Source of the DNA: Phycisphaera sp.
GTDB taxonomy: Bacteria > Planctomycetota > Phycisphaerae > Phycisphaerales > Zrk34
Direction of reading: 5' to 3'
NCBI GenBank assembly: GCA_016125285.1
Contig: WGMA01000037.1
Span: 62,001-126,000, forward strand
DNA: 64,000 bases
The notes under the pieces were generated by a model. The model saw only the letters and a program-made list of their open reading frames with translations, did no database searches and had not been told where the DNA came from. Made by a program: the position numbers and the translations under genes. How positions within the stretch are numbered: the stretch's first letter is position 1; each line of letters starts with the position of its first letter. Below, in pieces: positions 40,929 to 53,010 of this stretch.

Positions 40929-41879
40929 ATGGTCAATCCGCATCCGCAGCGCGTCCGTCGCATGAGTCACGCTCGACATCGAGGCATCTCGCTGCTCGAG
41001 GTCATCGTTGTGCTGTTCGTAATCGCGGTTCTTGTGGGCTTCCTATTGCCGTCGTTGAGCCGATCCGACCACGGATCCAGTCGTACGATCTGCTCGTCGA
41101 ACCTCGCCGGCATCTACAAGGCGATGTACACGTACTCTACGACCAACAAGGACAAGTTTCCGCGAGCGGGCGCGAGTGATCCCGAGGGCGCGGCGATCGG
41201 ATTCGCCGAGGGCAATCGACTGACCGGTGACGGGGCGGTGCTCGAGAACAACGTTACGGCGAGCCTCTGGATGTTGGTTCAGGATGGTTCGTGCGGAACG
41301 AAGAGCTTTGTCTGTGAATCGGACAAGGATTCTGAGCCGGACCCGCTGACGGTCGTCACACGCGGCGCGTTCACAGAGGAGCCCGTGATACTCGAGAAGA
41401 CGTTTGATTTCGGCGGGGCGAAGGCGCTGAGCTATTCCGTGATGAACATGCACGATGGCATCGCGGGCAAACAGTGGAACGCCGACGTCGATCCCGCGTG
41501 GATTCTGATGAGCGACGACAACAACGCGAACGACGCGGGCCCGGTCGACAAGGCGGCGCCTCACACGCGCATCAGGGCCGGCACGTGGGATGTCGAGGAC
41601 CTTCAGTACGGCGAGAACAGCCAGAACCACTCAGAGGGCGAGGGCCAGAACTTCCTGTTCGGCGACAGTCACGTCAGCTTCACCAACGATCCGTTCCAGG
41701 GACCGTCGTACGACAACGCGATGGCGCTCGACGTGAATCCGGACCCGATGACGGAAGCGGCCGCGCCGCCAACACTCTCGAACGCCGCGATCAACGAAGC
41801 GAACCGCAAGACCGATGTCGTGCTGCTGCCGATCACGGGCAACGGCGGCGGGGCGGGCAGCCTCGATCCGTTTGATTGA
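40929..41879 (+). CDS. Prepilin-like protein, EGEGQN-tail family (dispersed copy)
   Basis: The product is 316 aa. Class III signal with an atypical cleavage context (RHRGISLLEVIVVLFVIAVLVGFLLPSL): Gly before Ile rather than Phe. The body (SNLAGIYKAMYTYSTTNKD, DPAWILMSDDNNA, GENSQNHSEGEGQN, FGDSHVSFTNDPFQGPS) is nearly identical in places to the gene at 51986 although 11 kb separates them; the membrane helix differs. AAGGGGG precedes ATG 40929 by 6 nt; ATG 40962 would also preserve the signal. Belongs with planctomycete pseudopilin-like secreted proteins whose job is unknown. The 135 bases upstream show no strong promoter. Confidence 0.85.
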   Translation: MVNPHPQRVRRMSHARHRGISLLEVIVVLFVIAVLVGFLLPSLSRSDHGSSRTICSSNLAGIYKAMYTYSTTNKDKFPRAGASDPEGAAIGFAEGNRLTGDGAVLENNVTASLWMLVQDGSCGTKSFVCESDKDSEPDPLTVVTRGAFTEEPVILEKTFDFGGAKALSYSVMNMHDGIAGKQWNADVDPAWILMSDDNNANDAGPVDKAAPHTRIRAGTWDVEDLQYGENSQNHSEGEGQNFLFGDSHVSFTNDPFQGPSYDNAMALDVNPDPMTEAAAPPTLSNAAINEANRKTDVVLLPITGNGGGAGSLDPFD

Positions 41880-50613: not shown

Positions 50614-51549
50614 ATGTGCATGTATGTCACACAATCACGACGACGGTTTCACAGTGGATTCACCATCCTCGAACTGCTGGTGGTCATGTTCATCATGGCT
50701 CTGCTGCTGTCGCTGCTGTTGCCGTCGATTTCGCGAGCCCGCGAGGCGGCGAACCGCACGATCTGTGGCACCAGCGAGTCAGGCATGTACAAGGCATTGA
50801 TGACTTACGCCTCGACGAACAGGGACAATTTTCCGCGATATGGCACCGATGGCTCTGACCAGACGGTGTTCGGGTTCGCCGGCATCGATCGACCGGAGAC
50901 GAGCCCTGACGCCCAGAGTCTCCGTGACAACCTCACCGCGGCGCTCTGGATGCTGGTGCGTGAGGTTCGTGCCGACACCGGTCAGTTCGTCTGTCCGTCG
51001 GCGCCCGTCGGGGTGCAAGACCCGTTGCGAGAGGTCGTCGGCAATGAATTTGGCAACCAGGGGGTCGCTGTTTCAAAGACCTGGGATTTCGCGTTTGCCC
51101 GAACGTTGAACTATTCCTTCGTCAACATGTATTGCCGCGGCGTCGGGGCCGGCTGGTCTTCGCTCGCGCGAGGCGACTGGGTATTCGCCGCGGACAACAA
51201 CAACGCAACGGAAGATCATCCCTTATCGCCTGGGTCCTTTCACACCAACAAGAAGGAAGACGGCGCCAACCCTGCGGTCATGTCGCAGGAGGAAAACAGC
51301 TATAACCATCGCGAGGGCGAAGGCCAGAACGTCATGTTCGGGGATGGGCACGTGGAATTTGTCACGGATCCGTTCCAAGGGCCTTCCAGCGACAACATCA
51401 TGGCGGTGGATACCGATTCCGATCCGTTCACCAATACGCCGGGGCCGCCAACTTTGATCAACAACGAAATCAATGGAGTCAACGAGAGCAAAGACGTGGT
51501 GCTGGTGCCGATTTCGGGCAACGGGGGCGTCAGTTTATCGGGCCTCTAG
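50614..51549 (+). CDS. Prepilin-like protein, EGEGQN-tail family
   Basis: The product is 311 aa. Class III prepilin signal (RFHSGFTILELLVVMFIMALLLSLLLPSI; cleavage Gly-Phe, Glu5). Family features: REAANRTICGTSESGMYKAL, a Cys pair (TICGT, QFVCPS), an AADNNNA segment, and the tail YNHREGEGQN followed by MFGDGHVEFVTDPFQGPS. This tail resembles the H-x9-DG motif of planctomycete prepilin-like proteins, with two more residues between His and Asp-Gly. ATG 50614 is supported by GGGAAAGGA 8 nt upstream. It is the most diverged of the three copies in this window. Confidence 0.88.
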   Translation: MCMYVTQSRRRFHSGFTILELLVVMFIMALLLSLLLPSISRAREAANRTICGTSESGMYKALMTYASTNRDNFPRYGTDGSDQTVFGFAGIDRPETSPDAQSLRDNLTAALWMLVREVRADTGQFVCPSAPVGVQDPLREVVGNEFGNQGVAVSKTWDFAFARTLNYSFVNMYCRGVGAGWSSLARGDWVFAADNNNATEDHPLSPGSFHTNKKEDGANPAVMSQEENSYNHREGEGQNVMFGDGHVEFVTDPFQGPSSDNIMAVDTDSDPFTNTPGPPTLINNEINGVNESKDVVLVPISGNGGVSLSGL

Positions 51550-51580: not shown

Positions 51581-51610
51581 TTGACAAGGCGTCTACACCG
51601 TGTCTATACT
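51581..51610 (+). promoter_or_regulatory. Strong promoter upstream of the second tandem prepilin gene
   Basis: Consensus TTGACA (51581-51586), 18-nt spacer, TATACT (51605-51610). Predicted transcription start near 51617, about 370 nt before the start codon. Confidence 0.75.
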
Positions 51611-51616
51611 TCCGAC

Positions 51617-51985
51617 GGTCGATGAATGGGACAGCAGCAGGAACTAAATCGCCATTATTCAAAACTTATGATTGCTGCAGTTCAATTCACCGCCACATGT
51701 GTTCGCTCGCCGAGGGGAAAGTAAGAGTTCTAGCGAGCGAACGGGGAGTTTGGCGGACACTTCCATGAGATACCTCACGGAGCGTGTCAAAAAACAAGTT
51801 GGTTGCGCTGCCTGTGTTAGGACAGGGGTGTTCATCGAGCCGGTTGCTTCGCTTCGCTGCCGTTAGTCCAAGCTCGAAATGGTCGGTGGTCGACCGTTTT
51901 TGAGATTCTGGCAGTGAACAAGCCGATCCGACGCACAGCAGCTTGGGTTTCCTCATCCTGTACCTTTCTACTAAGGAGTCTCCGA
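51617..51985 (+). ncRNA. Long structured leader RNA, possibly a separate small RNA
   Basis: No supported gene in this stretch. Stems seen: GCAGCA/TGCTGC (51634-51639, 51673-51678); CCGCCA/TGGCGG (51690-51695, 51751-51756) enclosing a perfect 10-bp stem GTTCGCTCGC/GCGAGCGAAC (51701-51710, 51733-51742); GACAC/GTGTC (51756-51760, 51784-51788) enclosing TCC-TGAG/CTCA-GGA; CCTGT/ACAGG (51811-51815, 51822-51826); TCGAGC/GCTCGA (51835-51840, 51872-51877); then a terminator-like hairpin at 51877-51901. It is either a 370-nt leader with attenuator or a small RNA of about 285 nt. No known RNA family was recognised. Confidence 0.55.
51877..51901 (+). terminator. Terminator or attenuator hairpin in the prepilin leader
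   Basis: GGTCG (51881-51885) pairs with CGACC (51891-51895) around GTGGT; with a U-G pair and three A-U pairs the stem reaches 9 bp, followed by the T-run ending at 51901. It lies 85 bases before the start codon, so it would stop transcription before the gene unless bypassed. Confidence 0.45.
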
Positions 51986-52936
51986 ATGAGACGCAAAGGC
52001 TTTACTCTGATCGAACTACTGGTGGTCGTTGCGATCATCGCTCTGCTGATCGGCATTCTGCTGCCGTCACTGAGCCGTGCTCGCGAAGTGGCCAACCGCA
52101 CGATCTGCTCCTCGAACCTCGCCGGCATCTACAAGGCGATGTACACCTATTCGACGACCAACAAGGACAAGTTCCCCAAGTGGCAGTCGGCGGGTACTGA
52201 CCAAAGCGCCACGGGCTTCTCGGACCTCGAAGACCGCGACGATCCGACCTCGACCATCACCGGTCGTGTGGTGACCGACAACGTTACCGCCGCGCTGTGG
52301 ATCCTCGTCCGTGACGGTTCCACGGGCGCCAAGAGCTACGTCTGCCCGTCGGACAAGGGTTCGGATCCCGATCCGCTGACTCAGTTCACGGCTGGCGACC
52401 CCGCCGCGTTCAACGACACGGCGTCGACGCTTGAGAACACCTACGACTTCGGTGGTCTCGACAACCTCAGCTACTCCGTGATCAACATGTACGACAACAT
52501 CGAGCGCGGTCAGTGGGACGCCGATGTGAACCCCGCCTGGATTCTGATGAGCGATGACAACAACGCCTATCAGTCTGGGCCGGTTGACATGACCGACTTC
52601 CACCTGCGCATCAAGTCCGACACATGGGACGTTGAGGACCTCAAGTACGGCGAGAACAGCCAGAACCACTCCGAGGGTGAAGGCCAGAACTTCCTCTTCG
52701 GCGACAGCCACGTCTCGTTCACCAACGATCCCTTCCAGGGCCCGTCGAACGACAACGCCATGGCTTGGGACTCCGACTCGACGAACACGACCGAGGTCGC
52801 TGCGCCCGGCACGCTCTCGAACCAGCTGATCTACTCGGGTAACCGTAAGCAGGACGTCTTCCTGCTCCCGGTCACTGGTGGCGATTCGGACGAGAACCTC
52901 TCGAATACCGATCCGGCAATCTTCGTCGGTAGCTAA
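51986..52936 (+). CDS. Prepilin-like protein, EGEGQN-tail family (probably abundant)
   Basis: The product is 316 aa. Classical class III signal (MRRKGFTLIELLVVVAIIALLIGILLPSL, cleavage Gly-Phe, Glu5), Cys pair (TICSS, SYVCPS), PAWILMSDDNNA, and the tail GENSQNHSEGEGQN followed by LFGDSHVSFTNDPFQGPS. A strong AAGGAG lies 7 nt before ATG 51986, the promoter at 51581 is near consensus, and codons such as CGT, GGT and GTT are more frequent than in most neighbours, all suggesting high expression. A strong terminator follows. It could be a major surface fibre or matrix protein; the precise role is unknown. Confidence 0.92.
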   Translation: MRRKGFTLIELLVVVAIIALLIGILLPSLSRAREVANRTICSSNLAGIYKAMYTYSTTNKDKFPKWQSAGTDQSATGFSDLEDRDDPTSTITGRVVTDNVTAALWILVRDGSTGAKSYVCPSDKGSDPDPLTQFTAGDPAAFNDTASTLENTYDFGGLDNLSYSVINMYDNIERGQWDADVNPAWILMSDDNNAYQSGPVDMTDFHLRIKSDTWDVEDLKYGENSQNHSEGEGQNFLFGDSHVSFTNDPFQGPSNDNAMAWDSDSTNTTEVAAPGTLSNQLIYSGNRKQDVFLLPVTGGDSDENLSNTDPAIFVGS

Positions 52937-52974: not shown

Positions 52975-53010
52975 GGGGCCGGTCGCACGCGACCGGCCCC
53001 TTTCATTTTG
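52975..53010 (+). terminator. Strong rho-independent terminator after prepilin gene
   Basis: GGGGCCGGTCG (52975-52985) pairs perfectly with CGACCGGCCCC (52990-53000), 4-nt loop, then TTTCATTTTG. Confidence 0.92.

Follow-up and report, generated by a model that had tools for sequence, protein, structure and literature searches.

A prepilin gene in the 64,000-nucleotide stretch of Phycisphaera sp. DNA analyzed here (hereafter the window) is preceded, at some distance, by a near-consensus promoter. This raises the question of whether the long interval between them is a structured leader acting on the gene, the source of a separate small RNA, or spacer without any RNA-level function. The overall explanation toward which we lean is that it is the 5' leader of the mRNA of the major prepilin gene and carries a conserved cis-acting RNA domain.

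The leader and its gene

The features of the locus on which the argument draws are listed below.

51581..51610, + strand: promoter TTGACA-18 nt-TATACT, -35 box at 51581-51586 and -10 box at 51605-51610
51617..51985, + strand: leader RNA (5' untranslated region), predicted start about 51617, placed from the -10 box
51625..51639, + strand: 5' strand of stem P1, AATGGGACAGCAGCA (swap test, nine genomes)
51648..51658, + strand: conserved unpaired motif ATCGCCATTAT in the P1 loop (outside-trained matrix; family pattern count)
51673..51687, + strand: 3' strand of stem P1, TGCTGCAGTTCAATT (predicted fold; swap test)
51690..51756, + strand: hairpin with a 10-bp stem, 51701-51710/51733-51742, inside CCGCCA/TGGCGG, 51690-51695/51751-51756 (exact sequence and predicted fold)
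51756..51788, + strand: hairpin GACAC..GTGTC (predicted fold)
51873..51904, + strand: terminator-like hairpin with an internal T-run (predicted fold; not conserved in 35 other leaders)
51973..51978, + strand: Shine-Dalgarno sequence AAGGAG, ahead of the prepilin ATG at 51986 (sequence)
51986..52936, + strand: prepilin gene putatively served by the leader, 316 aa (PF07963 N_methyl, E = 5e-8; TIGR02532 above cut-off)
52975..53000, + strand: intrinsic terminator after the prepilin gene, 11-bp stem (terminator scan)

The promoter is identical to the consensus at 11 of 12 positions and lies exactly where a first-pass annotation of this DNA had located it (TTGACA, 18 nt, TATACT, ahead of the prepilin gene). 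Promoter-like sites of such quality number two in 2.9 kb, against 0.8 expected. All nine genomes of the window's family contain an ortholog of the prepilin gene, and in all nine a near-consensus promoter occupies the matching place, 336-570 nt 5' of the ATG, in the form TTGACA or TTGACC, a spacer of 16-18 nt, and TAnnnT. Each of these orthologs stands more than 400 nt from the gene or open frame before it, a comparably long gap being missing before most prepilin paralogs, and a Shine-Dalgarno sequence, AAGGAG in most, precedes the ATG in every one (9/9). The first-pass annotation had described the interval as having no supported gene, and the short open reading frames within it indeed have no support. 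The prepilin encoded in the window also has a DUF1559 match just under the cut-off.

By itself, the fold of the window leader is only mildly unusual compared with shuffled sequences, its folding energy of -131 kcal/mol corresponding to a z of -1.85, with four of 100 shuffles equally good; over 36 leaders, the mean folding z is about -2.4. The Rfam covariance-model search proposed at first pass gave no match for the window at the gathering threshold of Rfam 15, and none for the leader at E <= 5, whereas among 16 related loci it gave one tRNA and no RNA-leader match. The lack of any recognizable riboswitch, RNase P, tmRNA, 6S, or SRP signature noted earlier is thus upheld by the scan, which finds no T-box either. 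Because the window fold barely beats its shuffles and Rfam is silent, the case for a functional RNA rests on the relatives of this locus.

A covarying stem and loop motif in the family of the window

Nucleotide BLAST of the window leader against 60 relatives recovered no related leader DNA. Set side by side, the leaders of the family would each begin with a stem, P1, that varies in sequence between genomes and encloses an unpaired motif. When each 5' segment of P1 was combined with every 3' segment from the nine genomes, its own partner ranked first or second of nine in all nine (permutation p = 3e-5); the segments in this swap test were fixed windows around the motif, with no fitted alignment, and were picked after the sequences were known. 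A combined shuffle test of P1 in the family gave p = 6.6e-6.

The motif in the loop lies about 30-35 nt past the predicted transcript start (47 in one genome), and its pattern is present in eight of the nine family leaders, whereas in 2000 shuffles it occurred in 0.97 on average and in no more than 5. A second motif-like site, CCTGTTCTGAT, follows ACCGA at about +101 in the family leader L044 (genome G007) and is near the form found in other families. The 10-bp stem that the first-pass annotation had emphasized and the 6-bp stem in which it is nested are both exact in the sequence; the stem for which conservation is seen is P1, just 5' of the 10-bp stem.

A related RNA domain across the order

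Prepilin orthologs in other families of the order are preceded by promoters 306-766 nt upstream, and the leaders behind these promoters share a predicted domain of recurrent layout. It consists of a 5' hairpin (P0), a P1 of 7-8 bp that starts with UGG and ends with CCG, a loop with the motif YGYYCTYATT, a hairpin P3 (for example GGCGGC/GCCGCC, GGTGGC/GCCACC, or GCGGTC/GACCGC), in many cases a hairpin P4, and GACA(A/T) directly after P1. In leaders of the f2 family, GCGAA or GCGTA often stands after the -35 box (TTGACAnGCGAAT), a conservation that exceeds the needs of a promoter spacer.

The first covariance model of the domain was built from five hand-aligned sequences, and further members were recruited with it. 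In an alignment of 22 sequences, 96% of cells are paired, 15 of the 18 pairs show two-sided changes, and the covariation is 0.358, compared with at most 0.062 with slid partners; an alignment of 42 sequences reaches 0.506, compared with at most 0.069. In both cases, the sequences were aligned by fitting them to the model, so that pairing is inflated. A separate consensus-fold run on the 42-sequence alignment, making its own structure prediction, recovered P1 and P3 with compensatory changes in 12 of 13 pairs. The GACA after P1 is identical in all 42 sequences, and YGYNNTNAT is present in most.

When 301 genomes of the order were searched with a covariance model, 50 gave matches, 48 of them a single one and two a second, weak match as well. 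At all 30 loci that were read, a prepilin gene lies about 190-640 nt downstream of the RNA match; this includes L131 and L132, which are cut by contig ends. A larger model placed the RNA at a prepilin gene in five of six f5-family genomes, and additional in-order matches were likewise upstream of prepilin genes. Two weak matches in the order, L148 and L149, are not near a prepilin gene, and the f6 family gave no convincing match to the models. Outside the order, the matches returned by class-wide and phylum-wide searches were all marginal, and none of the five that were read is at a prepilin gene. As far as the models can see, the RNA would serve one gene in one order.

Other kinds of search gave few loci. 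A protein-pattern scan of genome contigs gave four, and an exact search for the promoter plus TTATTC gave eight genomes, two of them clear members. Protein similarity led to L067 (JAJDDP010000119.1, Phycisphaerae), where the prepilin gene is preceded by TTGACA, by the motif CTCTTTTATTCGG, and by a P1 that looks plausible; the locus has no model match and is possibly another diverged member.

The window leader as a probable diverged member

The order-wide models R1-R3, applied to whole genomes, did not recover the window or its family; this family is without GACA after P1 and without P3 beside the motif, as is seen in the window leader itself, which has neither GACA directly 3' of P1 nor a P3 hairpin after the motif. 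Membership of the window therefore rests on the gene, the promoter position, P1, and the motif. Like the order-wide RNA, the window leader has a near-consensus promoter some 300-600 nt before a prepilin ATG, a covarying P1 near its 5' end, and YGYNMTNAT in the P1 loop. A motif matrix made from 42 sequences outside the family was scanned over whole leaders of 300-530 nt, and its best site fell in the P1 loop in seven of the nine family leaders; in the window, the best site of the whole leader is at 51648. Given that the matrix site falls in the P1 loop, and that gene, promoter position, and P1 are the same, the window leader is in all likelihood a diverged member of the order-wide prepilin-leader RNA, rather than a demonstrated member of the family that the models define.

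Comparison of these genomes demonstrates that the predicted promoter, P1, and the loop motif are kept together, nearly always once per genome, before the prepilin gene in several families of the order, with strong covariation; in the window's family the form is a diverged one. Conservation of the stems in related genomes, the lack of which would have refuted the first-pass reading by its own standard, is found both in P1 of the window's family and in the order-wide helices, which covary. The long structured leader that it had described before the prepilin gene is supported by this conservation and covariation, and we regard the existence of a conserved structured leader at this position as close to certain.

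How the leader may act

In the mechanism that we propose, the RNA would be transcribed from about 51617 through to the prepilin gene. The domain would occupy the very 5' terminus, which would be protected against degradation by a self-complementary stem, either P0 or, in the window's family, P1 itself. The bases that are conserved and unpaired, namely YGYNMTNAT in the loop and, in other families, GACA after P1, would serve for recognition by a partner, with a protein as the likeliest, and the 190-640 nt or so of variable sequence between domain and gene would be mainly structured spacer. The outcome would be a long-lived or regulated pilin mRNA. That the leader acts in cis on the prepilin gene is highly probable; that it works mainly through mRNA stability or the control of it is a proposal to which we give slightly less than even weight.

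The constancy of the 5'-terminal stems and of the unpaired motifs fits a leader by which the lifetime of the pilin mRNA is protected or regulated, probably with a partner bound at the motif. In 35 of 36 leaders, no more than 14 nt separate the start of the first predicted helix from the predicted transcription start. The paired fraction of the first 14 nt, from the partition function, is 0.59 against 0.54 in shuffles (p = 0.12); as this is not above shuffles, protection of the end is a guess.

Perfect palindromes of 10-16 nt occur at the transcript start (about +1 to +12) in 19 of 50 leaders and show a sharp positional peak, with a sequence that differs in nearly every genus (CGCTACGCGTAGCG, AGCCACGTGGCT, CCGCATGCGG, CTCGCTCGAGCGAG). 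They are borne by L077, L080, L083, L085, L088, L094, L097, L028, L126, and others. A plain hairpin needs no palindromic loop, so self-pairing between two RNAs or a role at the level of DNA is possible.

Alternative explanations

The near-invariance of GACA and YGYYCTYATT is not needed by a plain stabilizer and is therefore a hint of a bound partner. An autoregulatory protein or a global regulator might occupy the loop motif together with the GACA flank, thereby repressing or protecting the mRNA. This reading accords with the brevity of the conserved single-stranded motifs and with the variable sequence of the structure that carries them; we consider it unlikely. Of much the same doubtful standing is a new ligand- or protein-sensing class of RNA in one order of the Planctomycetes, whose P1-closed junction, with its invariant loop and flank bases, would control a single major pilin and whose 5' palindromes could pair two mRNAs.

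Somewhat less plausible is a riboswitch, in which the P1-closed domain would bind a small molecule and switch pilin expression. The junction-like domain, the near-invariant unpaired bases (GACA in 42/42, YGYNNTNAT in most), and the covarying helices would all suit such a device, and expression of a pilin gene could be responsive to a signal. However, the domain-to-gene distance of about 190-640 nt varies threefold, making it unlikely that the Shine-Dalgarno site is switched directly, and there is no conserved terminator near the gene, no regulon beyond the single gene served, and no match to the riboswitches of Rfam.

The first-pass annotation had offered an attenuator or a separate small RNA of about 285 nt as the product of the interval. 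The hairpin and T-run that it saw ending 85 nt before the ATG are present, including TTTTT, and the conserved domain is far from the gene, as might be expected of a trans-acting RNA transcribed from the same promoter and ended at 51873-51904. Against this, a terminator-like hairpin near the 3' end is found in one of 36 leaders, that of the window, and in none of the eight other family leaders. A standard terminator scan of the window does not list the hairpin, the T-run of which is part of a longer stem in which it can pair with AAA at 51877-51879. In relatives, the leader continues to the Shine-Dalgarno site and gene, which are always downstream, and strong model matches were not found away from prepilin genes. 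With no conserved terminator in the leaders, an attenuator or a terminated RNA is unlikely, and we consider the separate trans-acting RNA quite improbable. That the locus is a strong promoter followed by a long, GC-rich leader with chance stems agrees with a window fold just mildly better than shuffles but is contradicted by the swap test, the covariation, and the single matches upstream of the same gene, and is scarcely credible.

Relation to known RNAs

The structured mRNA leader is a well-known kind of element, and the prepilin-leader family is absent from Rfam 15. A literature search, the coverage of which left most subscription journals outside, found no publication on a prepilin-leader RNA. 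Stem-loops at the 5' terminus stabilize mRNA, as in ompA (reviewed in PMC7509114), and the ompA 5' untranslated region of Escherichia coli resembles the present leader in belonging to a surface-protein gene and in combining length, a stem at the extreme 5' end, and a spacer leading to a strong Shine-Dalgarno sequence. This likeness is one of architecture, with stabilization by the prepilin leader being putative, and the prepilin leader differs in that its loop motif is specific and, like a 3' flank, is conserved over an order. Riboswitch-type leaders, such as those for c-di-GMP, are likewise 5' leaders in which conserved unpaired bases are framed by covarying helices, whereas the prepilin leader has no Rfam match, no conserved expression platform that we could see, and one gene only. 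Rhodopirellula-1 and other candidate structured RNAs have been reported from Planctomycetes (PMC2864571), and these are alike in being structured RNAs deduced by comparison in the same phylum; they differ in that no Rfam leader match was obtained here and that pilin genes are unmentioned in that report.

Genomes of the order encode tens to hundreds of prepilin-like genes with unknown roles, and the RNA would mark one per genome for special control. For a phylum in which genetic studies are few, it offers a direct way to test what determines pilin output, and the defined motif, covariance-supported fold, and single target gene mean that mutations and probing can be designed at once.

The prepilin gene and its paralogs

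The first-pass annotation had called the prepilin probably abundant. The codon adaptation of its gene, 0.60, lends this weak support in exceeding that of the neighboring paralogs (0.41 and 0.51; ribosomal reference 0.74), but several ordinary genes in the window equal it. Two other prepilin genes of the window, at 50638-51549 and 40929-41879, are 43% and 64% identical to the leader-bearing gene and have no such leader upstream. A first-look protein search of the window's genome (G000) gave 139 prepilin candidates; as far as tested, the closest paralogs are without the leader, which stands before just one prepilin gene.
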